A stretch of DNA of 64,000 nucleotides, taken from positions 1 through 64,000 of the forward strand of contig NZ_JBFCVL010000012.1 of NCBI RefSeq assembly GCF_040712075.1. The letters run 5' to 3'. The translations under genes were made by a program, and so were the position numbers. Within the stretch, counting starts at the first letter, position 1. The number at the start of each line of letters is the position of its first letter. The stretch comes from Fodinicurvata sp. EGI_FJ10296. Its GTDB lineage: Bacteria > Pseudomonadota > Alphaproteobacteria > DSM-16000 > Inquilinaceae. Positions 36,123-51,313 of this stretch are shown here, piece after piece. The notes beneath the pieces are model-generated. The model did not search any database, was not told the origin of the DNA, and saw only the letters and a list, made by a program, of their open reading frames with translations.

Positions 36123-36626
36123 TCACCACACTCCCGGAAGCGGAATCTGAAACAGGCGAATGAAAAGCAGATAGATGGTGAGCAGCGTTCCGCCGGTTAT
36201 GCTGATGATCCCGACCCACGACCGGTACCCCAGGGTGATCAGCACGCCGGGAATGAAAACCGCGACAGCGGGCAAGGTGCCGACCTGCGGCAGCACCGCG
36301 GCGAAGCCGATCAGCCACAGGCTGAGCGCGGCTGACGGTATCCAGTCGCGCCAGACAGCGGCGCCGTCGCTGCTTTCCGCGGCCATCGCCGGCGCGGCGT
36401 CGCGGTCACGCTTCGAACGAAAGGCCGCGAGAACCTCCCGCAGAATCACGATCAGCATTACCGGTACCAGGATGGCCATGAGAAAGCGGGGATATCCGGC
36501 GGCGATGAACTGCAGATCCCGCGATTCCCAGGCAAATACGGCCATGAACCCCAGGATCAGGAAGGGCACGGCAAGGCGCGCGGCCAATGCCTGAATCAAC
36601 GAGGGCCCGTCCGATGGTGACGCCAT
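36123..36626 (-). CDS. tctB: TTT transporter small membrane subunit TctB
   Basis: A 167-residue protein with four membrane segments of the TctB pattern (LAVPFLILGFMAVF; AAGYPRFLMAILVPVMLIVI; AALSLWLIGFAAVLPQVGTL; FIPGVLITLGYRSW). ATG at 36624-36626 follows ATGGAGG with correct spacing; longer starts lack such a site. Confidence 0.88.
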   Translation of the reverse strand: MASPSDGPSLIQALAARLAVPFLILGFMAVFAWESRDLQFIAAGYPRFLMAILVPVMLIVILREVLAAFRSKRDRDAAPAMAAESSDGAAVWRDWIPSAALSLWLIGFAAVLPQVGTLPAVAVFIPGVLITLGYRSWVGIISITGGTLLTIYLLFIRLFQIPLPGVW

Positions 36627-36723
36627 CGGTTTCCTCCATTTTCCGACATTCATTGGCTGACAGATTTCCGAGGCCAATGGCCGGATTTTCGGGATAGAGA
36701 CGACCGGATCGACAAGAGCAAGC

Positions 36724-36774: not shown

Positions 36775-37767
36775 TCAGTCCTGGGCGTCGCGGGCGAACG
36801 CTTCCAGGCCCTCGCGCGCGTCACGGATCTGGGCGTCATACTCGTCGGCCGGCAGGAACGACAACCGATCCAGTTCGTCGAGTTCTTCGAGCTGGGCACG
36901 GTACTCTTCGTTGTGCAGTGCGGCCTCGACGGCGGCAGTCAGCATTTCGTAGCGATCCGGGTGATTGTCGCGGCAGGCTGCGGAGGTGAATATTCCGTAG
37001 CTCGGTCCCTGGGGAGGAAGATCCGTACCCAGCGCCTCGTTGATCGTCGGGGCGTCGTTGGTCTTGCCCGGCCACTGATTGGTATTCGCCGCCACACCCA
37101 GAACACGGGTATGTTCGGCAATCGAAAGGCTGTTGTAGACGGCGGCATAGTTCATATCCGCGTGGCCGCCGGCCAGAGCGTTACGCGCTTCCGATCCGCC
37201 GCCGAAAGGCACGATGTTGAACTCGACGCCCGTGGCTTCTTCGAGCTGTTTCGTACCAAGATAGTAGGCATCCTGGAACGAACCGGCGCTGACGATGACT
37301 TCGCCCGGATTCTCGCGGGCATGGTCGATCAATTCCTGCAGGTTCTCCCAGGGCGCGTCGTTGCGGACACGAATGACGCCGGCATCCACGCTGACCTGCG
37401 CCAGAGGAGCGAAATCGTCATAAGTATAGCCGGTTTCCTGGTTCATATAGGAAAAGATCAGATGCGGGATGCCCCACATCAGGATCGTCCGGCAGCTGTC
37501 ATCGGAAACGGTCAACTGACCACCGACCGCACCGCCGCCGGCGGCGTGGTTCTCGACGACCAGATTGGCGTCGAGTTCTTCTTCCAGATAGGCTTCGAGC
37601 TGCCGGGCGGTGGTATCAAATCCGCCGCCGGCGCTGGAACCGACGATGAAACGCATCTGGCCGTCGTTCCACGAGGTATCGGCGTTTGCCGCTCCAGAAG
37701 CCCAGGCAACTGACGCGACGCCAGCCAGAAGAATTGATGATACCGCTTTTTTGGCGATCCTGGTCAT
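36775..37767 (-). CDS. tctC: TTT transporter binding protein TctC
   Basis: A 330-residue periplasmic protein with a signal peptide (1-31, ending ASGAANADT). The fold is marked by MRFIVGSSAGGGFDTTARQLEAYLEEEL (near 39) and NLVVENHAAGGGAVGG, the carboxylate loop of the family. First gene of tctC-tctB-tctA-prpD-prpD, divergent from the LysR regulator. ATG at 37765-37767 after AGGGAT. Confidence 0.9.
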   Translation of the reverse strand: MTRIAKKAVSSILLAGVASVAWASGAANADTSWNDGQMRFIVGSSAGGGFDTTARQLEAYLEEELDANLVVENHAAGGGAVGGQLTVSDDSCRTILMWGIPHLIFSYMNQETGYTYDDFAPLAQVSVDAGVIRVRNDAPWENLQELIDHARENPGEVIVSAGSFQDAYYLGTKQLEEATGVEFNIVPFGGGSEARNALAGGHADMNYAAVYNSLSIAEHTRVLGVAANTNQWPGKTNDAPTINEALGTDLPPQGPSYGIFTSAACRDNHPDRYEMLTAAVEAALHNEEYRAQLEELDELDRLSFLPADEYDAQIRDAREGLEAFARDAQD

Positions 37768-38065
37768 GATTCCATCCCTATGTTTGTATAGCAAGCCGGA
37801 CTCGACACATCTCAAGCGAGTAATGCGCGAAGCTGAAAACTCATTTCAAACATGCGCACGCTTAAGTTTTATTCCGGCAGCCATTTAATTTCTGATCGAT
37901 CCCGGCAGCGAAGCGAAAAGCTACTTGCCTGCACGCCAGTAACGACACAACTTTAGGGCCAAAGGAAATTCCGGGCAAGACGGCCTGCACGATAGCAGAT
38001 ATAAGGATTGGATATGGGACGGCCGATGGGCAGACAGCGTAGAGAGCGTCCCGGAGGGAACCCGA
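37768..38065. promoter_or_regulatory. Divergent promoter region between tctC and lysR
   Basis: A 298-base gap between two divergent genes. It should hold both promoters and the LysR binding sites. I see A+T-rich stretches (37855-37895) but no single convincing T-N11-A box, and no small gene. The regulon motif TGGATACAAT is absent here. Confidence 0.4.
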
Positions 38066-39025
38066 ATGGATCTGCGAAAACTCCGCTATTTCGTTTCAAT
38101 CGCCGAGGCTGGAAGCTTCACCCAGGCGGCCCATGTACTGGGCGTGGCGCAACCAGCCCTTTCCCAGCAGATATCCGGCCTTGAGGGCGATCTCGGCGTC
38201 GAACTGTTCTATCGCACCGGCAGGGGGGTGGTTCTGACCGAAGCCGGGGCCGACCTCCTGCCACGGGCACAACACATCCTGGGCGATATCGAGGTCGCCC
38301 GCAACGAGATGGCCCTGCTGCGCGCGACTCCGCACGGCACGATCTCACTCGGGGTGCCGCCGTCTGTCAGCCATTCAGTCGTCGCGGGATTCGTCCTGCG
38401 GATGCGGGAGCGGTTTCCGAAAATCCGGTTGACGATTATCGAAGGGTCGAGCGGATTCATCAAGGAGTGGCTGAACAAGGGCCGTCTGGATATCGGCATT
38501 CTCTATCAGGTCGGATCTGAACAATCGCTGCCCGATGAGCGGCTGTTGGCGGAGGATCTGTCCCTGGTCGGAAAGGCCGACGACCCCATCATCGCCAATG
38601 GCAAGGTGGCCTTCGACACGCTCGCCGACTTGCCGCTGATCCTGCCGAGCCGGCCTCACGGCCTGCGCACCCTGGTCGACACGATCGCCCGCAGTCGATC
38701 GATCGAACTGAAATCGGTACTGGAACTCGACGGCGCGGCACTGATCCGCAGCCTGGTGAATTCCGGCTGCGGGTACTCTATCCTGCCCGACGTCACGGTC
38801 CGTCTCGATCTGAGTGCCGCCGGCGTCGGCTCGGCGAAGATCGTCGACCCGGTCATCACCCGGACGATGATCATCACCAGCACCAACGAGCGCCGCGCCA
38901 AGGCAACGACACGCACCGCCATCGCTCTTCTGCGCGAAGTCGTGGGCGATCTGTCTCACCTTCATGCCGCAGCGGCCGACCCGTCTATCCGCAATGAAAT
39001 TGTGGCCGGCGTCGTCCCCAACTGA
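38066..39025 (+). CDS. LysR-family regulator, probably of the TTT-PrpD operon
   Basis: A 319-residue regulator. The winged helix (1-60) reads MDLRKLRYFVSIAEAGSFTQ, then AAHVLGVAQPALSQQISGLE; the effector domain starts near 90 (GTISLGVPPSVSHSVVAGF). The pattern is close to the CynR/Nac/CbbR type that senses carboxylates. Ribosome site GGAGGG precedes the ATG. Divergence from tctC suggests control of that operon. Confidence 0.9.
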   Translation: MDLRKLRYFVSIAEAGSFTQAAHVLGVAQPALSQQISGLEGDLGVELFYRTGRGVVLTEAGADLLPRAQHILGDIEVARNEMALLRATPHGTISLGVPPSVSHSVVAGFVLRMRERFPKIRLTIIEGSSGFIKEWLNKGRLDIGILYQVGSEQSLPDERLLAEDLSLVGKADDPIIANGKVAFDTLADLPLILPSRPHGLRTLVDTIARSRSIELKSVLELDGAALIRSLVNSGCGYSILPDVTVRLDLSAAGVGSAKIVDPVITRTMIITSTNERRAKATTRTAIALLREVVGDLSHLHAAAADPSIRNEIVAGVVPN

Positions 39026-39456
39026 TCGTCACACGATGAATTCGTGGCCGCGCGGGTGCTCATGAAGCATCCGATGCGCATAATGCGCCGCCCTGCCGAC
39101 GACGGGCGGCGCCAGCTTTCCGGTCCGTCGCCGGGGATATGCAGCGATCGGGGTCGGCCCGGCATCACTCTGGCACGGTTGCGACTGCCCCTTGTTGCTT
39201 ACGTTGCATACGCTTCCAGTTTTAGAAACAATATTATCGGCTGTTTTTGCTCGGTTTTTTTGTCCCCTGCCCCGGTTTTCGATAAAATCTTGCACTCAGC
39301 GCGATGTCCTGCCATGTTGGAATGAGTACGTATGCATTCGTTTGCAATTGGTGAAGCGGAACGGCCCATGGCTCAGATCATGTCAGGCCAGTTCAGGACT
39401 GACCCGGCAGGCGAACACGCCGCAGAGACAGGATCACAAAAAATTCGGAGGAAACC
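39026..39456 (+). other. 431-base intergenic region before the second TRAP operon
   Basis: No gene is recognisable on either strand. The region holds the promoter of the TRAP/HDH module and the candidate LacI-type site at 39332-39347. The part near 39190-39260 is A+T-rich compared with the rest of the window. A GGAGG ribosome site lies just before the dctP ATG (39449-39453). Confidence 0.5.
39332..39347. promoter_or_regulatory. Candidate LacI-family operator
   Basis: ATGCATTCGTTTGCAA has two TGCA elements placed evenly around a central CG, as in LacI/GalR operators. It lies about 110 bases before dctP of the module whose LacI regulator is encoded at 44457-45491. Only one such site was found, so this is tentative. 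Confidence 0.35.
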
Positions 39457-40443
39457 ATGAAGACCAGCATTTTCACAGCGACCGCCCTCGTCGCGCTATT
39501 GACCGCCAACGTCAGCGCCGCACAGACCACGATCCGGATTGCCCATGCGCAGCCCGAAGCCTCGCCTCTGCACGAGGCACTGGATCATTTCAAAACCACG
39601 CTGGAAGAGCGTTCGGATGGCGGCTTCGTGGTCGAGCTGTTTGCAGGCGGACAGCTTGGCAGCGTCAGCGAAGCCACAGAGCTTGTGCAGTCGGGCAATA
39701 TCGAAATGACGACAGGGGCGTCCGTCCTGCTGTCCTCAGCCGTGCCGGAGCTTGCGGTTCTGGACCAGTTCCTGCTGTTCGACGATGAGGAACATGCCCG
39801 CAATGTGCTGGACGGCGAAGCCGGCGACACAATTCTGGCCGCCATGGAAGAACGCGGCCTGAAGGGCATCGGCTTTCTGGAACTTGGCTTCCGCAGCTTC
39901 ACCAACAGCCGCGCTCCCCTCGACAGCCTCGAGGCGTTCGAAGGTCTGCGCATGCGCTCGGCCGACAACCCGATCCAGATCAAGGCATGGCGGTCCATCG
40001 GCGCTGTGCCCGTGCCGCTGGCCTGGGGTGAAATCTATTCGTCCCTGCAGCAGGGTCTGATCGACGGGCAGGAAAGCGCGCTGTCGTCGATGGTCGTGGA
40101 ACGCTTCTATGAAGTGCAGGACTACGTCTCGCTCACCGGGCACATCTACTGGCCGGAAATGTGGTTCGCCAATCTCGAATTCTTCAACAGCCTGAGCGAC
40201 GAAGACCAGGCGCTGCTCATGGAAGTGGCGGCCGAAACGACTGACGTGCAGCGCGACCTCGTCGCCACGGCCAATGCCGAAACGCTGGACCAGCTGGCCG
40301 AAGAGGGTCTTGCCATAAACGAGCTTCCGGCAGAGGACCGTGCGGAAATGGGGGCGACAATGAACGCCGCCATCGAAGAGGATATTCGCGCCAGCGTCGG
40401 TGACGAATTTTACGACGCGTTCAGCGCTGCGCTGAACCAGTAA
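39457..40443 (+). CDS. dctP: TRAP transporter solute-binding protein DctP (second system)
   Basis: A 328-residue periplasmic protein with a signal peptide (1-22, ending NVSAAQ). DctP blocks are TIRIAHAQPEASPLHEAL, FRSFTNSRAPLDSLEAFEGL, RMRSADNPIQIKAWRSIGA (with the ligand-binding Arg) and PVPLAWGEIYSSLQQGLIDG. Ligand probably a carboxylate or sulfonate. First gene of the module that runs to 49179. Confidence 0.9.
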   Translation: MKTSIFTATALVALLTANVSAAQTTIRIAHAQPEASPLHEALDHFKTTLEERSDGGFVVELFAGGQLGSVSEATELVQSGNIEMTTGASVLLSSAVPELAVLDQFLLFDDEEHARNVLDGEAGDTILAAMEERGLKGIGFLELGFRSFTNSRAPLDSLEAFEGLRMRSADNPIQIKAWRSIGAVPVPLAWGEIYSSLQQGLIDGQESALSSMVVERFYEVQDYVSLTGHIYWPEMWFANLEFFNSLSDEDQALLMEVAAETTDVQRDLVATANAETLDQLAEEGLAINELPAEDRAEMGATMNAAIEEDIRASVGDEFYDAFSAALNQ

Positions 40444-40453
40444 TCCGCTTCGA

Positions 40454-40481
40454 GCGACCGACCCCTGACCGGGTCGGTCGC
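40454..40481. terminator. Hairpin between second dctP and dctQ
   Basis: GCGACCGACCC (40454-40464) and GGGTCGGTCGC (40471-40481) pair perfectly over 11 bases with a 6-base loop, 11 bases after the dctP stop. No T run follows. Same position as the hairpins behind the other three binding-protein genes. Confidence 0.6.
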
Positions 40482-40505
40482 CCATGTGACAGGGAGCCGC
40501 GCAAC

Positions 40506-41015
40506 ATGTTCCGTCTGCTGCGCCTGATCGAGCAGTATTTCGAACCCGTGATCATTGTGACCAGCCTGGGTCTGGTGATCACGCTGCTCTTCGCGGATGT
40601 GGTCGCACGCTTTGCCTTTCAGACTTCGGTCTTCTGGGCAGGTGAGGTTGCAAGCTTTGCCTTCGTCTACATGATCTATTTCGGCATCAGCTACGCAATT
40701 CGCGAAAAGCGGCATCTGCGGGTGACAATGCTGGTCGAAATGGCCCCACCGCTGGTGCAGCGCGCCCTTCTGGCGCTCGCGGAAGTGGTTTTTCTTGTCT
40801 ATTCCGTGATCGTCTGCTGGCTGGGAGTCGTGATCACGACCAACGCCATCGACCGCGGCCAGATCCTGTCGGCGACGCAATGGCCGACCGCATTTCTCTA
40901 TGCTGCCATCATCTTTTCCGGCGCACTGTGCGTGCTCCGGTTGCTCTATTCGCTCTGGATGATCGTGCGCCATGGAGAGACCGTACTGTCCTCCCCGTCC
41001 GGGGGGGCTGCATGA
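40506..41015 (+). CDS. dctQ: TRAP transporter small membrane subunit DctQ (second system)
   Basis: A 169-residue, four-segment membrane protein. The DctQ pattern is visible in VVARFAFQTSVFWAGEVASF and the REKRHLRVTMLVE loop. Its stop overlaps the dctM start (ATGA at 41012-41015). Confidence 0.87.
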   Translation: MFRLLRLIEQYFEPVIIVTSLGLVITLLFADVVARFAFQTSVFWAGEVASFAFVYMIYFGISYAIREKRHLRVTMLVEMAPPLVQRALLALAEVVFLVYSVIVCWLGVVITTNAIDRGQILSATQWPTAFLYAAIIFSGALCVLRLLYSLWMIVRHGETVLSSPSGGAA

Positions 41016-42304
41016 CCAGCGCCGTCCTTTTCGGAAGCTTCGTATTGCTCCTGCTGATCGGGGTGCCCATCGGGATCGCACTCGGGACTGCCAGCTTGCT
41101 GGCGATCAGCACGATTTCCTTCCTGACCTATGATTTTTACGCGCTCGGTCTGGTCAGCGGCGTCAATTCCTTCACGCTGATGGCGGTGGTCCTGTTCACG
41201 CTGGCCGGCAATCTGATGAGCCGCGGCGGTATTTCCCGCCGGCTGATCGCTGTGGCCGAAGCGTTTTTCGGTACGGCACCGGGCGGGCTTGGCACCGTCA
41301 CCATCATGGCCTGCCTGTTTTTCGCGGCGATTTCCGGCACAGGATCGGCCACTGTGGCCGCGATCGGGCTGGCGATGATCCCGGCACTGGTGCGGCGCGG
41401 CTATGACCGGGCGTATGCCGGCTCGATGGTGGCATCGGCCGGGGCGCTTGGCGTCATGATCCCGCCATCGGTGGTGATGATCGTCTACGCGGTCACGGCC
41501 GGCGTTTCCGTGTCGGCGCTGTTTCTGGCGGGGATTCTCCCCGGCATCGTGATCGCGTTCGCGTTGATTCTGTTCAATATCTATCAGACCTGGCGTGGCG
41601 GCTGGGAAGCAGAGGCAGAGGCCGCCACCTGGGCCGAAAGGTTTCGCCGCGTCAATGACGCCAAGCTGGCGCTTCTGATGCCCGTTGTGGTGCTGGGCGG
41701 TATCTATGGCGGCATCGTCACACCCACTGAATCTGCCGCCGTAGCCGTTGTCTATGCGCTGATCGTGTCAACACTCGTCTATAAAGAGCTGAAATGGGCA
41801 GAGCTGCCGCGCATCATGCTCGATTCCGCGCTGCTGGTTGCGGCGGTGCTTGTCATCATCGGCGCCTCGGTCGGGTTCGGCCGGATCATAGCGTTGGAAC
41901 GCATCCCGCTGGAACTGTCGCAATTCGTTCTCGGACTCACTCAAAACTGGGTCATCGTCCTTCTGGCCATTATCGTGCTTTTGCTGATCATCGGCACGTT
42001 TCTGGAGACTCTGGCGGCCATTGTCATACTGACACCGGTACTGCTTCCGATGATTACTCAACTCGGCGTCGATCCCATCCATTTCGGGATTATCATGATT
42101 GTGGCGCTGGCTATTGGTTTCGTCACACCGCCACTCGGGGCCAATCTGTTCATGGCCGCGCAGGTGGGCCAGATCCCCTACGACGATCTCGTGCGGCGAA
42201 TCTTCAAATGGGTGCTGGTTTTGACCGCAGCGCTTCTGGTGATCGCTTTCTGGCCGGGGCTGTCGTTGATCCTTCCACGAATTCTGCTGGGATATGGCAC
42301 TTAA
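41012..42304 (+). CDS. dctM: TRAP transporter large membrane subunit DctM (second system)
   Basis: A 430-residue channel subunit with DctM blocks [19 protein letters not shown] (near 49), [38 protein letters not shown] and [18 protein letters not shown]. The start overlapping dctQ is supported by coupling; a longer frame upstream is a shadow of dctQ. It ends 13 bases before the dehydrogenase gene, whose ribosome site is AAAGGAGG. Confidence 0.92.
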
Positions 42305-42317
42305 AAAGGAGGCACTC

Positions 42318-43628
42318 ATGACTATCGACCATCTCAAAACCGCCAAATCCGAAGCCGAGCGCAGCGAGGATGACGCCAGGACCCGCAGCGTGGTCGAGGC
42401 CACCCTGAAAGACATCGAAGCGCGCGGCGACGCGGCAGTGGCCGATCTCAGCCAGAAATTCGACAATGTGTCGCGTCCCTCGTTCCGCTTGACCCCGTCG
42501 GAGATCGAGGCTGCGATGCAAAAGGTCGGCACACGCGACATGGAGGATATCCGTTTCGCGCAATCCCAGATCCGACGTTTTGCCGAGGCACAGCGCGCGT
42601 CGATGACCGATATCGAGGTCGAAACCCTGCCGGGTGTCATCCTGGGTCACAAGCACATCCCTGTGCAGTCGGTGGGGTGCTATGTGCCCGGCGGAAAATT
42701 CCCGATGGTGGCCAGCGCGCATATGTCCGTCCTGACCGCAAATGTCGCGGGCGTGCCGCGCATCGTGGCCAGCGCACCGCCGGTCAAGGGGGAACCCCAT
42801 CCTGCCATCGTTGCCGCCATGCATATGGGCGGGGCGCATGAGATTTATGTGCTGGGCGGCATTCAGGCCGTCGGCGCCATGGCGATCGGCACCGAAACCA
42901 TCGACCCGGTCCATATGCTTGTGGGTCCCGGCAATGCCTTCGTCGCCGAAGCCAAGCGCCAGCTTTTCGGCCGCGTCGGCATCGACTTGTTTGCAGGCCC
43001 CACTGAAACCATGGTCATCGCCGACGACACCGTCGATGCGGAACTGTGTGCAACCGACCTGTTGGGGCAGGCGGAGCACGGCTACAATTCGCCGGCTTGC
43101 CTCATCACGACGTCGCGCAAGCTGGCCGAAGCCACGCTGGCCGAGATCGACCGGCTGCTTACAATTCTGCCCACCTCGGACACCGCCGCCATCAGTTGGC
43201 GTGATTACGGCGAAGTGATCCTGTGCGACAGCCATGACGAGATGCTCGCCGTCGCCAACGACATGGCCTATGAGCATGTGCAGGTGATGACCGACCGCGA
43301 CGACTGGTACCTTGAGAACATGCACAGCTATGGCGCGCTGTTCCTGGGTCCGCGCACCAATGTCGCCAATGGCGACAAGGTCATCGGCACCAACCACACG
43401 CTGCCGACAAAAAAGGCCGGCCGCTATACAGGCGGGCTCTGGGTCGGCAAGTTCCTGAAGACCCATTCTTATCAGAAGGTAACCACCGATGAGGCCGCCG
43501 CCCATATCGGTGAATATGGCTCGCGGCTATGCATGCTCGAAGGCTTTGTCGGTCATGCCGAGCAGTGCAATGTCCGTGTGCGCCGCTATGGCGGCCGGAA
43601 CGTGCCCTATGGCGAGGCTGCGGATTAA
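42318..43628 (+). CDS. Histidinol dehydrogenase-family alcohol dehydrogenase (HpsN-like)
   Basis: A 436-residue NAD-dependent enzyme of the histidinol dehydrogenase family: [19 protein letters not shown] (near 116), [21 protein letters not shown] (near 205), [34 protein letters not shown] and [20 protein letters not shown] (near 356). It lies outside any his operon and next to a TRAP transporter, so it is catabolic. The closest described member by pattern is HpsN, which oxidises dihydroxypropanesulfonate to sulfolactate in four-electron steps, but no sulfo-lyase gene is near. It should convert a primary alcohol to the acid. The ATG at 42318 follows AAAGGAGG. Confidence 0.82.
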
Positions 43629-43655
43629 CTCCGCATCTTCATCATGCCCGATGCC

Positions 43656-43681
43656 ACCGGTCCTGTTGGTCCGGTCTTTTT
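43656..43681 (+). terminator. Rho-independent terminator after the dehydrogenase gene
   Basis: ACCGGTCC and GGTCCGGT form an 8-base stem with one T-T mismatch and a TGTT loop, directly followed by CTTTTT. It lies 28 bases after the dehydrogenase stop and 15 bases before the SDR gene, so it should reduce read-through from the TRAP/HDH genes into the SDR-LacI genes. Confidence 0.65.
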
Positions 43682-43695
43682 AACAGAGCAGAGCA

Positions 43696-44460
43696 ATGCC
43701 GCTTCCCGTGACACCATCCTTCCGCCTTGAAGGCCGCCGCGCCATCGTTACCGGTGCCTCCTCGGGCATCGGGCTGGGCTGCGCCACCGCTCTGGCAGAG
43801 GCCGGGGCCGAAGTGACGATGATCGCTCGCGGCGCCTCCCGGCTGAAGGACGCGTGCGCGCAGATCCGGGATATCGGCGGGCAGTCCGGATACGAAGTGC
43901 TCGACATTACCGACACGGCGGCGCTGCGCGCGTTGGTACAGCGCGACGGTCCGTTCGACATTCTCGTCAATGCCGCCGGTCTGGCCCGCCACAGCCCCGC
44001 AGTCGATACGACGGAGGACGATTTCGACGTCGTCACGGGCGTCAATGTGAAAGCCGCCTATTTCGCCGCCCAGTTCGTGGCACAGGGGTTGATCGCGGCG
44101 GGCAGGCCTGGCTCGATCATTCAGATCTCCAGCCAGATGGGGCATGTCGGCGGCATCGACCGCGCGGTCTATTGCGCAAGCAAACACGCGGTCGAAGGGA
44201 TGACCAAGGCCATGGCCATCGAATGGGGGCCTCATGGCATTCGGGTCAACACGATCTGCCCGACCTTCATTCTTACGCCACTGTCCAAGCCCACATTCGA
44301 CAATCCGGAGCGTCGCGCCTGGATCGAAAGCAGGATCAAGCTGAACCGCGTCGGACACATCGAGGATATCATGGGGGCCGTGCTCTATCTGGCGTCCGAT
44401 GCCTCTGCTCTCGTCACGGGCACCGCGCTCAAGGTTGATGGCGGGTGGACAGCGGAATGA
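43696..44460 (+). CDS. SDR-family oxidoreductase
   Basis: A 254-residue short-chain dehydrogenase with the NAD motif TGASSGIGLGCATALAEAGAE (given as TGxxxGIG, near 20), NAAG (near 92), Ser in IIQISSQMGHVGG and the YxxxK pair in YCASKHAVEG (near 157). It should oxidise or reduce a hydroxy acid in the module's pathway. Its stop overlaps the start of the LacI gene (ATGA at 44457-44460). Confidence 0.92.
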   Translation: MPLPVTPSFRLEGRRAIVTGASSGIGLGCATALAEAGAEVTMIARGASRLKDACAQIRDIGGQSGYEVLDITDTAALRALVQRDGPFDILVNAAGLARHSPAVDTTEDDFDVVTGVNVKAAYFAAQFVAQGLIAAGRPGSIIQISSQMGHVGGIDRAVYCASKHAVEGMTKAMAIEWGPHGIRVNTICPTFILTPLSKPTFDNPERRAWIESRIKLNRVGHIEDIMGAVLYLASDASALVTGTALKVDGGWTAE

Positions 44461-45491
44461 GTGGCGGAACGCGCATCACCGCAATGGATGTCGCCCGTCT
44501 GGCCGGTGTCAGCCAGTCCGCTGTCAGCCGATTCTTCACGCCCGGCGCCAGTGTCGCTCCGGCCACGGCAGACAAGGTTCGCGCTGCGGCGACAAAGCTG
44601 GGCTATACCCCCAACCCGCTGGCCCGCGCGATGATCACTGGCAAGAGCCGGATAATAGGGCTGGTGGTAACCTATCTGGAAAACCAGTTCTACCCAGTGG
44701 CGATCGAACGGCTCAGCCATGCGCTGCAGGCGCAGGGTTATCACATACTGCTTTTCATGGCCTCCAACGCGCCGGGCGAACTGGATCGGCTGGTCACCAA
44801 TCTTCTGGCCTATCAGGTCGACGGCATCATCACGGCCTCGGTCGCCATCAGTAACGACGTGACCGTGCGCTGTGCCGACGCCGGTATCCCTTTGGTGATG
44901 TTCAATCGCGGCCAGCCTGGATCGGGTCTGTCCTCGGTGACGTCGGCCAACAGGGAAGGCGGGCGCAAGGTTGCCCGTTTTCTGATCGAAGGCGGGCATC
45001 AGCGCATTGCCCATATCAGTGGCTGGCAAGGCTCCAGCACGGGGCGCGACCGCCAGCAAGGGTTGATCGAAGGGTTGGCCGATCTCGGTGCATCGCCCAT
45101 CGCGATCATCGACGGGCACTACGACCGCGACGTTGCCGCCGCGGCAACCCGCGAGTTGATGGGCGCAAGCAAGCCTCCCGACGCGATTTTCGCCGGCAAC
45201 GATCACATGGCGTTTGCCGTGATCGACACGCTGAGGGCCATGGGCGTTGCCGTGCCGCAAGACGTGTCGGTGGTGGGCTATGACGATGTGCCCATCGCTG
45301 CCTGGCCCTCCTATGACCTCACGACGATGCGCCAGCCTGTCAATCGCATGGTCGAGGCGACTGTTGAAACGTTGATCAACCAAATTCAGGACCCGGACCG
45401 GCCGGTCCAGCAAATGGAGATCGACGCGCCGCTCATCATGCGCGGGTCGGCCCGACGCCCGGCCCCGAGCGCTGAAACTGAGGGCACATGA
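44457..45491 (+). CDS. LacI-family transcription regulator
   Basis: A 344-residue regulator: helix-turn-helix TAMDVARLAGVSQSAVSRFF (near 8), the hinge helix NPLARAMITGKSRIIGLVV, and a periplasmic-binding-like sensor domain (about 60-330) with the family end block VPQDVSVVGYDDVPIAAWPSY. It is encoded inside the module and overlaps genes on both sides by 4 bases, so it is expressed together with what it controls, typical of substrate induction. Confidence 0.92.
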   Translation: MSGGTRITAMDVARLAGVSQSAVSRFFTPGASVAPATADKVRAAATKLGYTPNPLARAMITGKSRIIGLVVTYLENQFYPVAIERLSHALQAQGYHILLFMASNAPGELDRLVTNLLAYQVDGIITASVAISNDVTVRCADAGIPLVMFNRGQPGSGLSSVTSANREGGRKVARFLIEGGHQRIAHISGWQGSSTGRDRQQGLIEGLADLGASPIAIIDGHYDRDVAAAATRELMGASKPPDAIFAGNDHMAFAVIDTLRAMGVAVPQDVSVVGYDDVPIAAWPSYDLTTMRQPVNRMVEATVETLINQIQDPDRPVQQMEIDAPLIMRGSARRPAPSAETEGT

Positions 45492-45583
45492 ATGACTGCG
45501 CCCTGAAATGGCAGAATCCCCATTGGCGGGAACAACGAAACCGCGATCTGGAAACAGGTCCTTTGCACACAGGTGAGATATGA
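45488..45583 (+). CDS. Candidate 31-residue small protein bridging lacI and the cupin gene
   Basis: The ATG at 45488 overlaps the lacI stop (ATGA), and the TGA at 45581-45583 overlaps the cupin start (ATGA). The frame fills the whole gap between the two genes without a stop. It encodes a hydrophilic peptide starting MNDCALKWQNPHWREQ and ending HTGEI, with two Trp and one Cys. GAGGG lies 3 bases before the ATG, rather close. No family is recognised. It may be a real small protein or simply a device that keeps ribosomes moving into the cupin gene; the double 4-base overlap is hard to explain by chance, but 31 codons are few. Confidence 0.45.
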   Translation: MNDCALKWQNPHWREQRNRDLETGPLHTGEI

Positions 45584-46548
45584 CCCCAGAGGAAATGGAA
45601 GCGCGCATTGTTCGCTACGGCGACCTGCAGCCCTGCAAGACCGCCTTCATCGACGCCCACACGCCGGGCAGCGATCGGAAGGAAAATTTCACCATCATCG
45701 GGGGCGGCGTGTCCGAATCCCCTGATCAGCATGTCCATATCCACGAGACGCCCGGCTTCAATATCGGCGCGGCAGGCCAGCCGCCGAACTGCCGCAACTC
45801 GCTGCATTCACACCGCACGGCCGAAGTGTTCTTCGTGCTCAAGGGCCGCTGGCGCTTTTTCTGGGGACGCTGGGGCAATGCGGGCGAAGTTGTGCTGGAA
45901 GAGGGCGATATCTTCAACATTCCCACCGGCATCTTTCGCGGCTTTGAAAACATCGGTACCGACTACGGCATGATCATGGCCATTCTCGGCGGCGACGATG
46001 CCGGCGGCGGCGTGATCTGGGCGCCACAGGTGATCGAGGATGCACGCGATCACGGCCTTGTACTGGGCGACAACGGCAAGCTCTATGACAGCAAGAAGGG
46101 CGAAAGCCTGCCTCAGGGCGTTAGCCCCAAACCCACCCTGACCGACGAAGAACTCAAGGCGTTTCCCGAGCCCACCACGGCGGATGTCGTTCCAAACTTC
46201 GTCGCCCGTTACCGGGACCTGATGGCGCTGTCGGACCACCAGCCCGCCCGGGTGATCGGCGCCGACGCAAAGCTGCGCGATCGCCCCGGTTTCGAGGTCG
46301 AGTTCCTGTCTCGCAATTCCGTCTCCGACACTGCCTATGCGACCGACAGTCACGAGATCCTGATGCCTGTGCGCGGGCATTGGCGGCTTTCATGGGACGG
46401 CGGCACAACAGCGTTGAACCCCGGTGACACAGCCGCCATTCCGCCGGGATTGCCGCACAGCCTGGCTCCGGCGATGACCGGCGAATCCAGCCTTTATCGG
46501 ATACGTAACACGGCCGATCCGGCAGGTCTTACGGGCCGTCTGACGTGA
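45580..46548 (+). CDS. Double-cupin protein
   Basis: A 322-residue bicupin. Cupin 1 (about 45-140) has HVHIHETPGF and SLHSHRTAEVFFVLKGRWRFFWG followed by VVLEEGDIFNIPTGIFRGFEN. Cupin 2 (about 235-310) has FLSRNSVSDTAYATDSHEIL and MPVRGHWRLSW with NPGDTAAIPPGLPHSL. Metal-binding His residues are present in the first domain and fewer in the second. Such proteins can be dioxygenases, isomerases or sensors; no specific role can be assigned. AGGTGAG precedes the start. Confidence 0.82.
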   Translation: MTPEEMEARIVRYGDLQPCKTAFIDAHTPGSDRKENFTIIGGGVSESPDQHVHIHETPGFNIGAAGQPPNCRNSLHSHRTAEVFFVLKGRWRFFWGRWGNAGEVVLEEGDIFNIPTGIFRGFENIGTDYGMIMAILGGDDAGGGVIWAPQVIEDARDHGLVLGDNGKLYDSKKGESLPQGVSPKPTLTDEELKAFPEPTTADVVPNFVARYRDLMALSDHQPARVIGADAKLRDRPGFEVEFLSRNSVSDTAYATDSHEILMPVRGHWRLSWDGGTTALNPGDTAAIPPGLPHSLAPAMTGESSLYRIRNTADPAGLTGRLT

Positions 46549-46681
46549 CAATTCACAATCGAGCCGAAGCGCGGTTCTGAAGGCGGTCGTTATCGGGTCC
46601 GCCGGAATCCCGGCGGAAACGTCCGGCATTCAGCGGAACCGCTTCAACCGCGCTTTTTTGGGCCCATGAAGGAGAAACCAA

Positions 46682-47803
46682 ATGCCCATTCGCAGCACCC
46701 ATGTCGGTAGCCTGCCCCGCAGTCAGGACGTCGCTGATTTCCTTTTTGCGCGGGAACAGGGCAAGCCTTATGACACCGCCGCCTTCGATGCCTGCATGAC
46801 CGCCGCCGTGCTTGAGAATGTGCGTCGTCAGAAAGAGGTTGGCATCGATATCGTATCGGATGGCGAATGCTCCAAGATCAGCTACGCCACCTATGTCAAG
46901 GACCGCTACACCGGCTTTGACGGGGACAGCCCGCGCAATGCGCCGGCCGACCTGAAGATGTTCCCGAGCTTCCTGGACCGGATCGCCAAATCCGGCGGAA
47001 CGCCAAGCTATGCGCGCCCGCAATGCGTCGGGCCTGTTGAAAGCAAGAGCACTTCGGATCTGCAAAAGGACATCGCCAACCTCACAGCGGCCATGACAAC
47101 CCATGGGGTCAGCGACGGGTTCATGAATGCAGCCTCACCCGGCGTGATCTCGTTGTTTCTGGAAAACACCTACTACAAGGACCGCGAAACCTATCTCTTC
47201 GCGCTCGCCGATGCGATGCGCGATGAATATCGCACCATTCTCGATGCCGGGCTGATGCTGCAACTGGATTGCCCCGATCTGGCGTTGTCGCGGCATATGC
47301 TGTTTACGGATCTCAGCGACGCGGAATTCGTGAAGATCGCGCGCACCCATGTCGATGCGCTGACCCACGCACTTGACGGTTTGCCGAAAGATCGTGTGCG
47401 CCTGCACATCTGCTGGGGCAATTACGAGGGGCCGCATTGCTGCGATATCGAGATGGCCGCCGTCTTCCCCATGCTGATGGCGGTTCCTGCGCGCTATGTG
47501 CTGTTCGAGACCGCCAATCCGCGCCACCGGCATGAATGGCGGTTGTTCCGCGATCGCGCGGCCGAGATCCCCGACGACAAGGTTCTGGTGCCGGGCGCGG
47601 TGGACACGACCAGCAACTTCATCGAACACCCGGATGTGGTGGCCGAGCAATTGCAGCATTTCGTCGATATCGTCGGCCCGGACCGGGTGATCGCCAGCAG
47701 CGATTGCGGCTTCGGCACATTTGCCGGATTCGGCGCGGTGGACCCGGAAATCGCGTGGGCAAAGCTGGCCACCCTGGCCGAAGGCGCACGACGCGTGAAA
47801 TGA
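46682..47803 (+). CDS. Stand-alone MetE-like (cobalamin-independent methionine synthase carboxyl-domain) protein
   Basis: A 373-residue protein that matches only the catalytic carboxyl half of MetE. The zinc site is complete: RLHICWGN (His and Cys, near 240), YVLFETANPRHRHEW (Glu, near 277) and IASSDCGFGTFAG (Cys, near 341). The start RSTHVGSLPRSQDV is typical. The amino-terminal half of MetE is missing, so it is unlikely to make methionine from methyltetrahydrofolate. Related single-domain enzymes move alkyl groups to or from thiols, such as epoxyalkane:coenzyme M transferase. In a catabolic module it may demethylate or dealkylate the substrate. Its stop overlaps the next start (ATGA). Confidence 0.82.
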   Translation: MPIRSTHVGSLPRSQDVADFLFAREQGKPYDTAAFDACMTAAVLENVRRQKEVGIDIVSDGECSKISYATYVKDRYTGFDGDSPRNAPADLKMFPSFLDRIAKSGGTPSYARPQCVGPVESKSTSDLQKDIANLTAAMTTHGVSDGFMNAASPGVISLFLENTYYKDRETYLFALADAMRDEYRTILDAGLMLQLDCPDLALSRHMLFTDLSDAEFVKIARTHVDALTHALDGLPKDRVRLHICWGNYEGPHCCDIEMAAVFPMLMAVPARYVLFETANPRHRHEWRLFRDRAAEIPDDKVLVPGAVDTTSNFIEHPDVVAEQLQHFVDIVGPDRVIASSDCGFGTFAGFGAVDPEIAWAKLATLAEGARRVK

Positions 47804-48486
47804 CACCGCTTGTCCTGATCCCCGGCATGATGTGCGACGCCCGGATGTGGGGCGATATCCCCACCCATCTGCCCGCCCTTGTGCATCATGCGCTGCCAAC
47901 GGGCGCGGACAGCATGGCCGGGCTCGCCGCGCGGATTCTGCACGACGCTCCCGATCGGTTCGCATTGGCCGGGTTGTCGATGGGCGGGATCGTGGCGATG
48001 GAAATGCTGGCTCAGGCGGCAGACCGCATCACGCGGCTGGCGCTTCTGGACACCAACCCCTGCGCCGAAGCCTCCGCCGTCCAGTCGCGTCGCGGGCCCC
48101 AGATCGACCGCGCGCTGTCGGGCGGCCTGGACCATGTCATGCGCGATGAAATGAAGCCGAACTATCTGGCCGAGGGGCCGCAGCGGGGCCCAATCCTCGA
48201 TCTGTGCATGGACATGGCGCTTGCCGTCGGCCCTCAGGTTTTTCGCGACCAGTCCGTCGCCTTGCGCGACCGTGCCGACCGCCAGCAGGCGCTGGCGGCC
48301 TTCAAGGGTCCCGCGCTTGTGCTGATGGGCGAAGACGACCGACTCTGCCCCCGCGACCGGCACGAACGCATGCATGCGCTCATGCCGCAATCACGCTTCG
48401 TCATGGTGCCGGGGGCGGGCCATCTACCCCCACTCGAACAACCTCAGGCGACGGAACAAGCGCTGCGTCACTGGCTGGAGGAATAA
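47800..48486 (+). CDS. Alpha/beta hydrolase
   Basis: A 228-residue hydrolase with a small cap. The catalytic triad is visible: nucleophile in LAGLSMGGIVAM (near 67), Asp in LMGEDDRLCPRD (near 178), His in VPGAGHLPPLEQP (near 207). It could open a lactone or cleave an ester or thioester formed in the pathway. Start overlaps the MetE-like stop by 4 bases; it ends directly against the RraA-like gene. Confidence 0.88.
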   Translation: MTPLVLIPGMMCDARMWGDIPTHLPALVHHALPTGADSMAGLAARILHDAPDRFALAGLSMGGIVAMEMLAQAADRITRLALLDTNPCAEASAVQSRRGPQIDRALSGGLDHVMRDEMKPNYLAEGPQRGPILDLCMDMALAVGPQVFRDQSVALRDRADRQQALAAFKGPALVLMGEDDRLCPRDRHERMHALMPQSRFVMVPGAGHLPPLEQPQATEQALRHWLEE

Positions 48487-49179
48487 ATGGACCAGACCCT
48501 TTTGGCCCTGTTGAGCAAGGTCGATACCCCGACCGTCTGCAACGCCATCGAGACCGTTCAGGGCCGCCGCGGCTTTGCCGGCTTCACCCGCGGCACCATG
48601 ATCTGTACGCAACCGGGCACCGCTGTCGTGGGCTATGCCGCCACGGCTCGTATCGCCGCGCTTGCCCCATCTACCGAGCCGCCGGAAGTCATCCGCGCGC
48701 GTCGCATGGCCTATTACAAGGCTATGCATGACGCGCCGAAGCCGTCGGTTGCGGTCGTCGAGGATCTGGATTTTCCCAATTGTATCGGTGCTTACTGGGG
48801 CGAAATCAACGCGACGGTGCACAAGGGTTTCGGCATGGCCGGGGCGCTGACAAATGGTGTCGTACGCGATCTGGCCGATCACCCCGAGGGCTTTCCGGTC
48901 ATTGCGGGCAGCATCGGCCCCAGCCATGGCCATGTGCATGTCACGGAGCTGGGCACGCAGGTGCGTGTCTTTGGGCTGCATGTCGCGCAAGGCGATCTGA
49001 TCCATGCCGACCGCCATGGTGCGTTGGTCGTCCCGCCGGATGTCGTTCCGGCCCTTGCCGAAGGCATCGACAAGCTGTTGAGCACGGAAAAGATAATTCT
49101 GGACGCCGCGCGCCGCCCGGATTTCGACTTCGCTGCATTCGAAGCGGCCTGGGCCGCGTTCGAAAAGGCACGCACCTGA
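48487..49179 (+). CDS. RraA-family protein (HMG/CHA aldolase-like)
   Basis: A 230-residue member of the RraA/4-hydroxy-4-methyl-2-oxoglutarate aldolase family. The active-site pattern is visible in GEINATVHKGFGMAGALTNG and VVRDLADH (the G-x20-R-D type motif, near 101-125), then GVVVPP-like ALVVPPDVV. Catabolic members split 4-hydroxy-2-oxo acids into pyruvate plus a second oxo acid or decarboxylate oxaloacetate. As the last gene it could deliver pyruvate or a similar end product. The ATG follows the hydrolase stop immediately. Confidence 0.85.
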   Translation: MDQTLLALLSKVDTPTVCNAIETVQGRRGFAGFTRGTMICTQPGTAVVGYAATARIAALAPSTEPPEVIRARRMAYYKAMHDAPKPSVAVVEDLDFPNCIGAYWGEINATVHKGFGMAGALTNGVVRDLADHPEGFPVIAGSIGPSHGHVHVTELGTQVRVFGLHVAQGDLIHADRHGALVVPPDVVPALAEGIDKLLSTEKIILDAARRPDFDFAAFEAAWAAFEKART

Positions 49180-49291: not shown

Positions 49292-51313
49292 CTAGCGCAG
49301 CAATTCGGTGATCCGTCGCACGGCGACGCGCCGGTTCTCCCGCGATGGGCCGAGGGTCGGCACCACCAGATCCTGCTCGCCATAACCCTGCGTGATCAGG
49401 TTTTCCGGCGGCACCTCATAGAATTCCGTCAACAACGACGCCACGGTGTCGGCCCGCCGGTCCGACAAGGTCAGATTATAGAGATCGGGGCCAACGGCGT
49501 CGGTATGGCCCTCGATCAGGAAGACCTCGTCCGGGTTGCGGTCGATAAGGTCGGCCAGCGTCTGCCCGATCTCATCCAGCGCCCGCACCTCGCTCGCGCC
49601 CAGTTCGGCACTGTTGGTGGCGAAGGTGACGGTGTCGAGTTCCAGGCTGGGGGCCAGCCACCGAAGCCGCTCGTTCTCGCGGATCTGGCGGAGCGAGTAG
49701 GCCTGTTCATGATCGCGTATCGGCGGCGCGGTCAACAGCGACCGAATATCAGCCTGCGACGACTGGCTGAGAGACTGCGAGACCCGTTCCTCGCGCCGGA
49801 GCCACGGCAGGTCTTCATCAATCGTCTCTACGGAAACGTCGGTGTCCCTCTCGTCGAACAGGACCACTTCGTCGCCGTTCGGCAGCCGACGGACACGCCG
49901 AACCGGATTTCCGCCAGCGTCCCGCAGGGTAATGACCTCGATCCCGTCAGGATAGGTCACGGTCACCCGGCTCCGGCCCTCGGCCAATTCCTCCACTGAT
50001 ACGGTACTGCCATCGGTGAGCAGCCGCTCGGTCTCGTCCTTACGCACGATCAACCGATCGTCCTGCTGGATGACCACACGATCATCATCCTGCGTAATCA
50101 ACCGGCCGCCGAGTTCAGGAATCAGCGCACCAACGGCCCATCCTGCCGCACCAATGCCCAGCATGCGGATCAGTTCGTCGCGGTCACTGTCCTGCTCTTC
50201 CTCGGATTCCCCGGTCTCCTCGGCCGCCGCAGCCTCCTCGGCCTGACGCGCCAGCGCTTCCTCGACCGCACGCTCGATCGACTCCTGCTGCGCCTGTTCC
50301 AGCTCTTCCTCGCTCAGCGTCTCGGCGCTTCGCGCCGCCGCTTCGGCTTCGGCCTCGGTATCGGTATCGGAAGCCGCTTCGGTTTCTTCGGCTTCGACTG
50401 TTGCCTCGGTCTCGGCTTCAACCGTTGCCTCGGTTTCCTGCGTTTCGATGACCGCATCTTCATCGGCCTCGACAGCGGTTTCTTCCGCTTCCTCCGCCTG
50501 CGTTTCCTCTTCAGAGGCAGTCTCCGGGTCCGCTTCAGGATCCGTCACCGGCTCGTCGGCATCCTGGCTTTCGACCGGCTCATCGGCGCCGGTTGCCGTC
50601 GTTTCCGCCGCCGCGTCGGATTCATCCACCGCAGCATCAGTTTCTACACCGGTCGTTTCGCCGTCTTCAGCCGGTGCGTCAGGCTCTATCTCTGATGGTT
50701 CCGTTCCGGACTCCTCAACAGCCGTCGGCTCCTGCGTCTCAGGCTCAGCGTCGGCTTCTGGTTCCGACCCCGCTTCGGCTTCAGGCTCGGGCTCTGGTTC
50801 CGGCTCCGCTTCGGCCTCGGGCTCGGGCTCTGGTTCCGGCTCCGCTTCGGCCTCGGGCTCGGGTGCTGGTTCCGGCTCGGGTTCAGGCTCCGCTTCAGCC
50901 TCGGGTTCGGGCGCTGGTTCCGGCTCGGGTTCAGGCTCCGCTTCAGCCTCGGGTTCGGGCGCTGGTTCCGGCTCGGGTTCAGGCTCCGCTTCGGCCTCGG
51001 GCTCGGATTCGGGCGCGGGCTCTTGCGCAGCCTCCAGCGCGGCCGCTTCGGCTTCGGCCTCCGCCAGTGCGGCCGAAGCTGCCTCAAGCTCGGCTTCGGC
51101 AGCCTCTACATCGCCGCCTTCGGCCTGGGCGCGTTCGAGAGCCGTCCGGGCCGTTTCGACACGCGCACGCAGTTCCGTGACCGCTGTGATCGCCGATTCC
51201 ATTGCAGCAGCATCATCCGTCGCCGCAACCGCCTCATTCACGGTTCCGCCGCTAACGGCCAGTACCAGCGAAAGTGCGGCGCCGCTCAGGAGCATCGAGT
51301 GGAAACGTCTCAT
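49292..51313 (-). CDS. OmpA-family outer-membrane protein with long acidic Pro/Glu/Ala repeats
   Basis: A 673-residue exported protein. Order: signal peptide (1-30), coiled-coil helix rich in Glu and Ala (about 34-95), a very acidic spacer (about 96-375) with tandem 12- and 16-residue repeats of Glu-Pro/Glu-Ala, one hydrophobic glycine-rich segment (about 392-412, [18 protein letters not shown]), a beta-rich region (about 413-500), and a carboxyl OmpA peptidoglycan-binding domain (about 560-673: [23 protein letters not shown], here in parts). The spacer may span the periplasm or reach outside. Related proteins are common in alphaproteobacteria. Repeat number is likely to vary between strains. 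Confidence 0.85.
50802..51013 (-). repeat. Tandem 36/48-base coding repeats in the OmpA-family gene
   Basis: Three nearly identical 48-base units (50838-50885, 50886-50933, 50934-50981) encode 16-residue blocks of the type [16 protein letters not shown]. They are flanked by 36-base units encoding [12 protein letters not shown]. The units stay in frame, so changes in copy number would alter protein length without breaking it. Confidence 0.8.

Follow-up and report, generated by a model that had tools for sequence, protein, structure and literature searches.

A widespread LacI-controlled catabolic operon of putative oxidize-then-cleave type, with a distinct subfamily of histidinol dehydrogenase-like enzymes and a predicted operator

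Introduction

Two described branches of the histidinol dehydrogenase (HDH) family are the points of reference for this study. HpsN, a dihydroxypropanesulfonate (DHPS) dehydrogenase, carries the motif G-R-Y-A/S-H, which ends in the sulfonate-contacting residue His126, and HisD carries G-S-A-P-L, as given in the available text on the enzyme CpHpsN (PMC11382572); a further DHPS dehydrogenase study, in its available part, likewise marks residues 124-126 as those that differ in HpsN (PMC11131964). Here, we compare these systems with a cluster of ten genes from Fodinicurvata sp. EGI_FJ10296, one of which encodes an HDH-like protein. The cluster occupies positions 39457-49179 of the window, by which we mean the whole stretch of 64,000 nucleotides (64 kb) that was analyzed. 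An earlier note, made from the sequence of the window, had described the cluster as a catabolic module with its own regulator and had suggested a methylated, thioether- or sulfonate-bearing polyol or acid as its substrate. We find that the module is a real catabolic unit, that its HDH-like protein is distinct from HpsN, and that its gene set recurs in many Alphaproteobacteria.

Results

Gene content and organization of the operon

The ten genes all lie on the + strand and make up a nine-gene operon together with its own LacI regulator. In order, they encode a tripartite ATP-independent periplasmic (TRAP) transporter (DctPQM), the HDH-like protein, a short-chain dehydrogenase/reductase (SDR), LacI, a bicupin, a MetE-like protein, an alpha/beta hydrolase and an RraA-like protein:

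39457..40443, + strand: dctP, TRAP solute-binding protein (PF03480 over cut-off)
40506..41015, + strand: dctQ, TRAP small permease (PF04290 over cut-off)
41012..42304, + strand: dctM, TRAP large permease (PF06808 over cut-off)
42318..43628, + strand: HDH-like, predicted histidinol-dehydrogenase-family alcohol-to-acid dehydrogenase with a G-K-F-P-M motif (PF00815, motif, tree)
43696..44460, + strand: SDR, KduD / gluconate 5-dehydrogenase-like (score under the curated cut-off for each of the 25 families shown)
44457..45491, + strand: lacI, LacI-family regulator (PF00356 and PF13377 over cut-off)
45580..46548, + strand: bicupin (N-terminal cupin residues His76, His78, Glu82 and Arg120; double-cupin model, predicted local distance difference test [pLDDT] score 90)
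46682..47803, + strand: MetE-like, cobalamin-independent methionine synthase catalytic domain (PF01717; zinc ligand positions kept)
47800..48486, + strand: alpha/beta hydrolase, Ser60 in GLSMGG (closest models PcaD-type enol-lactonase, below cut-off)
48487..49179, + strand: RraA-like, probable pyruvate aldolase (PF03737; RD-x-x-D at 127-131)

All genes named in the earlier note were found at this place and on this strand, and the several 4-base overlaps that it reported are borne out by three ATGA overlaps read from the sequence (dctQ/dctM, SDR/lacI and MetE-like/hydrolase); the hydrolase and RraA-like genes abut. Exact starts were taken from the DNA for dctM (41012), HDH (42318), lacI (44457) and the hydrolase (47800). 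The ATG of lacI at 44457 overlaps the SDR stop, and the longest open reading frame (ORF) begins with a GTG at 44445. The TRAP transporter is complete, with all three subunits over cut-off, and the matches of DctP include sugar-acid-type TRAP receptors. The regulator claimed for the module is likewise present, with both LacI domains over cut-off and a predicted operator before the operon. We regard the module as confirmed: it is a real, single catabolic unit under LacI control.

Homologous clusters recur in other genomes

Scanning GTDB genomes with the bicupin yielded at least 519 confirmed relatives, and the best 80 named loci were analyzed; these loci were retrieved by the bicupin, hence its presence in them is uninformative. 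Genes were called with a home-made codon-model caller, which misses genes in places (none were called in L100), and tblastn tables were used alongside. By tblastn, at least one of HDH, SDR, MetE, hydrolase and RraA was present at 44% identity or more in 69 of the 80 loci. Among the 68 gene-called loci with another cluster gene, we counted LacI in 56, SDR in 55, HDH in 53, hydrolase in 46, a SnoaL-like pair (c5) in 45, MetE in 38, RraA in 33 and an HpcH-type aldolase in 10. Gene order is mostly kept across related loci, and two of them (L042 and L048) reproduce the window cluster from dctP to RraA, minus MetE. The loss of synteny in relatives, which the earlier note had named as an outcome that would speak against it, is thus not what we observed. 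Because homologous clusters recur in other genomes, the cluster is more than a chance assembly.

Associations were also counted in a class-level sample of 385 genomes. With cut-offs of E <= 1e-40 for the bicupin, E <= 1e-145 for HDH and E <= 1e-50 for c5, the bicupin was found in 29 genomes, HDH in 56 and c5 in 27. Bicupin and HDH occurred together in 26 of the 29 bicupin genomes (Fisher p 1.1e-21, a nominal value owing to the relatedness of the genomes and to cut-offs chosen by the analyst), and bicupin and c5 together in 26 of the 385. The bicupin genomes without HDH are G089, G099 and G358 (67, 94 and 94% complete), those without c5 are G000, G030 and G189, and c5 without bicupin occurs in G015.

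Within the order to which the window belongs, only 3 of 17 genomes, its own included, contain a bicupin match (E <= 0.001), one of which is short (2.4e-5). The bicupin is nevertheless 86% identical in loci titled Rhodobacterales bacterium, Roseicyclus and Methylobacterium. This rarity in the own order, set beside the high identity in these loci, makes horizontal transfer likely. Three small genomes of 1.4-1.6 Mb (G272, G349 and G175; loci L115-L117), whose fetched loci have 30-31% G+C, look like streamlined marine bacteria, a habitat that we infer. Their loci hold HDH (71-73%), MetE-like (48-49%) and ABC-transporter genes, c5 and a strongly diverged bicupin (31-34%). L115 and L117 also carry RraA, SDR (35-38%) and five SnoaL-like genes each; two SnoaL-like genes were seen at L116, and RraA and SDR were not seen at that locus.

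A shared palindromic motif is the predicted LacI operator

The idea of an operator arose from reading the DNA upstream of dctP; it had escaped a scan for near-perfect palindromes centered on CG. Two sites were noted:

39333..39346, strand not assigned: predicted LacI operator TGCATTCGTTTGCA, an exact TGCANNCGNNTGCA match, 110 bp before dctP
39205..39218, strand not assigned: possible further operator of LacI type, TGCATACGCTTCCA, which differs from TGCANNCGNNTGCA at one position, 238 bp before dctP, suggested by its position, which is its sole support

The exact match at 39333-39346 is the only one in the window. When up to one mismatch is allowed, the window has 4 matches vs 4.26 expected, a number that is in itself no evidence. 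Across related loci the motif is far more frequent than in the controls: it occurs in 39 of 69 loci, at 49 sites, vs 0, 3 and 0 sites for three permuted controls, with the reservation that many of the 69 loci are closely related and the 39 are not independent cases. For almost all of these sites (45 of 49), a matched start of a cluster-associated gene follows or precedes at 35-170 bp, counted to the nearest one; in the other four cases the distance is 9, 182, 235 and 1294 bases. The genome of the window contains five exact sites, one of them that at 39333-39346, vs three for the reversed control, so no further regulon member is indicated.

We also searched 18 further genomes with the stricter pattern TGCAWWCGWWTGCA and found 11 sites in 9 genomes, vs 0 for the control; it was not found in the other 9 genomes, 7 of which have the bicupin. 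Going by coordinates, 9 of the 11 are no more than about 8 kb away from the HDH gene in the same genome. One site belongs to a bicupin-free operon (L138, genome G009), where it sits within the 5' portion of the TAXI gene as called, 334 bases upstream of lacI. In G013, the site precedes HDH (in an HDH-LacI pair) and a divergent hydrolase, on a contig other than that of the bicupin. The two sites outside clusters lie in an unmatched ORF (G168, C1) and in a called ORF (G143, C22), the latter a 32% LacI match that adjoins an SDR-like ORF. In the distant clusters L118 and L121, the motif is found near HDH, bicupin or SnoaL starts. Altogether, these results point to a LacI-family regulator with a palindromic operator, here predicted, in front of its own operon.

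The HDH-like protein belongs to a subfamily separate from HpsN

Among solved structures, DHPS dehydrogenases come closest to the HDH-like protein (E 1e-110 to 1e-114). In an alignment with CpHpsN, its YEHVQ and GDK segments fall on Glu318/His319 and Asp352/Lys353, the Lys being a substrate-contacting residue. With the catalytic Glu-His and the zinc-site Asp-Lys kept, we predict an HDH-family four-electron dehydrogenase, and the alcohol-to-acid dehydrogenase of HpsN type proposed in the earlier note is supported to this extent. At the HpsN motif position, the window protein reads G-K-F-P-M, with Met in place of His126. This replacement is general in the clusters: of the 53 HDH proteins in named loci with 70% identity or more, 48 have GGKFPM, 3 GGKYPM and 1 AGKFPM, and 1 has no pattern match, with G-K-Y-P-L/I or R-Y-P-M in more distant HDH proteins.

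A tree of 67 rows (1 in 4 of the rows from named loci with identities of 70% or higher, other rows longer than 380 aa, and three solved chains) places the window protein in a clade of 46 rows with support 100/96, which adjoins an HpsN clade of three with support 100/99. Long branches meet near this join, and the deeper branching order is unsure. Judged by motif and tree, the window HDH is not HpsN and belongs to a separate clade, or subfamily. It scores over the cut-off of the current curated model, which names it histidinol dehydrogenase, and automatic annotation would misname the subfamily accordingly.

Other HDH genes occur beside or apart from the cluster type. The genome of the window has a better-scoring HDH gene (541.7 bits) on C5, probably HisD, and a third HDH-family gene (G000:C3:424843-426072) without the searched motif pattern. 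A second HDH clade, with G-R-F/Y-P-L, accounts for 15 of the 18 HDH proteins below 70% identity and is absent from the window; its genes stand on the opposite strand beside the cluster HDH, mostly adjoining an AtzE-like amidase (L035, L040, L041, L044, L055, L058, L069, L074, L077, L101, L108 and others). At L133, a few kb past a cluster, there is an HpsN-type HDH (GRYSH; L133:17345-18721, - strand) accompanied by a TRAP permease and an SDR, so that both HDH types coexist.

Minimal operons and alternating aldolase genes outline a core

Of the 56 HDH genomes in the 385-genome sample, 30 have no bicupin at the cut-off used. We fetched the HDH contexts of 20 of them (one of these contexts, L157, includes a bicupin-like gene of 34% identity), and in 12 an SDR of 46-65% identity lies a few genes from HDH. 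Two of these operons, L138 and L141, consist only of LacI, a TRAP-TAXI transporter, an HpcH-type aldolase, HDH (81 and 79%) and SDR (65%); a recognized bicupin was not found in either. L154 has LacI, HpcH, HDH (67%) and a fused-permease-like gene, with no recognized SDR, and RraA-like genes (43-45%) adjoin HDH in L142 and L150. Since the minimal operons hold just transport, HDH, SDR and aldolase genes, these four functions look like a complete core.

The two aldolase types alternate in the gene calls. In the 68 gene-called bicupin loci, RraA is present in 33, HpcH in 10, both in 0 and neither in 25. The HpcH-type gene follows the hydrolase in 10 of 10 cases, and RraA follows it in many, not all. 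The HpcH protein scores best, below cut-off, against HpaI, a 4-hydroxy-2-oxoheptanedioate aldolase. Because RraA alternates with HpcH/HpaI aldolase genes, a pyruvate aldolase activity of the RraA-like protein is supported, and this RraA-type lyase, which the earlier note had suggested as the pyruvate-forming step, probably does yield pyruvate. The R-D pair of its motif is presumably catalytic.

The bicupin, the MetE-like protein and the SnoaL-like proteins

An AlphaFold model of the bicupin built on a 31-row alignment (pLDDT 90; a single-sequence model with pLDDT 33 was discarded) has a double cupin fold. Its best fold matches are quercetin dioxygenase (Z 20.5), oxalate decarboxylase (20.2), vicilin (19.8) and salicylate dioxygenase (19.0), and the search did not separate dioxygenase, decarboxylase and storage-protein cupins for this model. 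All 31 sequences, the most distant at 32% identity, have His76, His78, Glu82 and Arg120 without exception. Arg120 occupies the place of a His that is usual in the second cupin motif: the metal site keeps His76, His78 and Glu82 and has Arg120 at the position of the fourth ligand. The bicupin stands without any other cluster gene in 11 of 79 gene-called loci (L053, L081, L087, L090, L095, L097, L098, L099, L102, L104 and L111, with bicupins of 78-83% identity). Where examined, the neighbors are unlike the cluster; they include an aminotransferase (L053) and a betaine-aldehyde dehydrogenase (L081). Because it stands alone in such surroundings, the bicupin may have a role outside the operon as well.

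In the MetE-like protein, His242, Cys244, Glu276 and Cys342, with conservation checked in 35 sequences, lie at the places of the MetE zinc ligands (H-x-C ... E ... C), and the earlier name of MetE-like zinc domain is correct. The gene is present in 38 of the 68 gene-called loci and missing, at the level of the locus, from 27 with at least 12 called genes. In the distant HDH-SDR operon L145, a homocysteine S-methyltransferase gene (PF02574) directly follows SDR, which is a hint of methyl transfer; a class IV aminotransferase gene and, by eye, a divergent iron-type alcohol dehydrogenase-like ORF adjoin this HDH-SDR-methyltransferase operon (L145:7411-12652). By sequence, methyl transfer by the MetE-like protein is possible but optional.

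A sugar-type ABC permease was matched in 44 of 69 loci; SnoaL-like genes accompany it in 31 of these and are missing from 13. The ABC binding protein matched sugar-binding structures weakly (best E 3.5e-14), which gave no substrate. A SnoaL match was not found in the genome of the window; 5 of 14 control genomes have one. We considered whether TRAP clusters without SnoaL import a later intermediate. Both TRAP loci and the window genome lack SnoaL, in weak support of this idea, and it is weakened by the absence of SnoaL from 13 of the 44 ABC loci as well. Two called proteins in related clusters, L080:814-1455 and L052:11056-12393, have no Pfam match at E <= 0.001 and are perhaps artifacts of the caller.

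Genes flanking the operon

By eye, from translations, a tripartite tricarboxylate transporter-like set lies upstream on the - strand (34554-36119, 36123-36677 and 36775-37815), divergent from a LysR-type gene at 38066-39025; because these genes are divergent and outside the operon, they were not included in it. Downstream, a long Glu/Pro/Ala-rich repeat protein with an OmpA-like C terminus (49292-51313, - strand, by eye) is convergent with the RraA-like gene.

Discussion

On balance, and with modest confidence, we lean towards reading the cluster as a self-contained, LacI-controlled catabolic operon through which a small organic acid would be imported and broken down to pyruvate. We infer the reactions, the order of the steps and the class of the substrate as follows. 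The TRAP transporter would take up a small polyhydroxylated organic acid, HDH would convert a terminal -CH(OH)-CH2OH group into an alpha-hydroxy acid by two NAD-dependent oxidations, SDR would turn the alpha-hydroxyl of this product into a 2-oxo acid, and the RraA-type aldolase would cleave the resulting 4-hydroxy-2-oxo acid to give pyruvate plus another oxo compound. For the alpha/beta hydrolase, the probable task is to open a lactone or ester, and the bicupin and the optional MetE-like protein, the latter by moving a methyl group to a thiol, may fit the natural substrate to this core. The HDH/SDR/aldolase route is the simplest reading because of the minimal operons and the alternation of RraA and HpcH genes. 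Gene content and conservation agree with the LacI-run oxidize-then-cleave module that the earlier note had proposed. An orthologous cluster with a proven substrate, which that note had considered decisive against it, or a described orthologous pathway was not found in literature searches, several of which were directed at particular substrates; this is a weak negative in that most subscription journals were outside their scope.

Several observations weigh against this route. The scheme does not explain the role of the bicupin, and it has no step for the SnoaL-like proteins that many loci carry. Transport differs between loci, with the sugar-type ABC permease in 44 of 69 and TRAP in only 2 of 69 (tblastn). 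RraA-like proteins include non-aldolases, and the window protein scores far below curated aldolase models; neither aldolase type is seen in 25 of the 68 gene-called loci, and L106 has RraA together with a 35% HpcH match (tblastn). The position specificity of SDR cannot be read from its sequence. Finally, a fitting operator is found in only one of the three minimal operons (L138), with none in L141 and a site inside HDH in L154.

Other substrates can be weighed against the same evidence. A variant DHPS pathway, or another sulfonate pathway, that runs through an HpsN orthologue is highly improbable. DHPS dehydrogenases are indeed the closest solved HDH relatives, the equivalent of Lys353 is kept and TRAP transporters are common to some sulfonate systems, but the residue that contacts the sulfonate in CpHpsN is Met in the window protein, G-K-F/Y-P-M is found in 52 of the 53 cluster HDH proteins that reach 70% identity (one has no motif match), and HpsN sequences keep to their own clade. 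Moreover, none of the families to which the ten operon proteins were matched is a desulfonating enzyme, and in G323 an HpsN-type gene (GRYSH) stands separately in the same region. Judged by these sequences, sulfonate use is disfavored, and the sulfonate substrate entertained in the earlier note is not supported, with G-K-F-P-M replacing the HpsN signature and the tree separating the clades; its view that the cluster does not fit DHPS degradation as described is supported. A methylated onium or methylated thioether acid (e.g., a betaine-lipid head group or another N- or S-methyl compound), from which the MetE-like protein would move a methyl group to homocysteine before the remainder is oxidized and cleaved, is unlikely, if less so. 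The intact zinc ligand positions are consistent with it, as is the homocysteine S-methyltransferase of L145, placed as if standing in for the MetE-like protein. Against it, the MetE-like gene is missing from the 27 loci mentioned above, including the TRAP clusters L042 and L048, and MetE-like relatives (E <= 1e-60) occur in 72 of the 385 genomes vs 29 with the bicupin.

Two further routes both strike us as improbable. In one, the operon family would be the missing bacterial pathway, via a new HDH subfamily, for mycosporine or gadusol-type sunscreens of algae and fungi, a proposal to which we attach little probability. HDH would oxidize the hydroxymethyl group on the tertiary carbinol of a mycosporine or deoxygadusol-type ring to a carboxylate, the MetE-like protein would remove the O-methyl group, the bicupin would cleave the enediol ring to 4-carboxy-4-hydroxy-2-oxoadipate (CHA), and the RraA-type aldolase would release pyruvate and oxaloacetate. 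On paper, the ring carbons of mycosporine and deoxygadusol map exactly onto CHA, and the RraA family includes CHA aldolases, albeit with weak model matches here. The predicted bicupin structure resembles ring-cleaving bicupins (quercetin dioxygenase, Z 20.5), but it lacks one usual metal ligand and matches the oxalate decarboxylase fold equally well. In relatives, amino-acid groups could be removed by the products of additional SnoaL-like and amidase genes. According to the available part of a review (PMC3083659), Vibrio harveyi may strip amino-acid groups and bacteria formed mycosporine-glycine and 4-deoxygadusol; ring breakdown is not reported there. The minimal operons, however, have no recognized ring-cleaving enzyme, a tertiary alcohol is no substrate for an SDR, the MetE-like gene is optional, and a bacterial pathway for comparison was not found in the literature searched. 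In the other route, a branched 3-deoxy sugar acid such as isosaccharinic acid would be degraded in three steps, by HDH acting on CH(OH)CH2OH, SDR forming the 2-oxo acid and an aldolase of the 4-hydroxy-4-methyl-2-oxoglutarate (HMG)/CHA type yielding pyruvate and hydroxypyruvate, once the hydrolase had opened the lactone. The minimal-operon genes suffice for this route, and on paper it yields a near analogue of HMG. A locus titled Natronohydrobacter (L038) has HDH 94% identical to that of the window over 0.8 of its length, SDR 78% and LacI 79%, and its name suggests alkaline surroundings, in which acids of this kind can arise. Yet the fit is purely chemical, the bicupin, MetE-like and SnoaL-like proteins are left without a role, the small low-GC genomes of L115-L117, if marine, are unlikely to meet such acids, and degradation genes for them were not found in the literature searched.

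The distribution of the cluster matters in practice. Its carriers are many Alphaproteobacteria, among them strains of Marivita, Paracoccus and Shinella that are kept in culture collections, as well as the small low-GC genomes. Because a conserved set with an operator, a transporter and enzymes is so widespread, a natural compound of some importance probably awaits assignment to these genes, and the cultured strains together with the predicted operator make direct substrate screening feasible.

Each part of the operon can be set beside a known system. The window HDH belongs to the same fold family as HpsN (CpHpsN, PDB 8v35) and shares the Glu318/His319 and Lys353 positions, whereas it has G-K-F-P-M instead of G-R-Y-A/S-H with its sulfonate-contacting His126 and falls in another clade. 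With HisD it shares PF00815 (442.9 bits), and it differs in motif and tree position and in lying outside a his pathway context. Bicupin dioxygenases for quercetin, salicylate and gentisate have the double cupin fold in common with the window bicupin (Z 18.6-20.5), at 10-17% identity and with a motif-2 His vs its invariant Arg120; oxalate decarboxylase and seed vicilins score about equally. The MetE catalytic domain shares PF01717, over cut-off, and the zinc ligand positions with the MetE-like protein, which at 373 aa lacks the N-terminal half of MetE and scores well below the cut-offs of the NCBIfam methionine-synthase models listed. The RraA-like CHA and HMG aldolases share PF03737 and R-D-x-x-D at 127-131, and the window protein reaches 29.7 bits vs a cut-off of 304.5 for the CHA aldolase model. 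Altogether, the operon is a widespread variant within a known kind of catabolic operon, set apart by its distinct HDH subfamily and its predicted operator.

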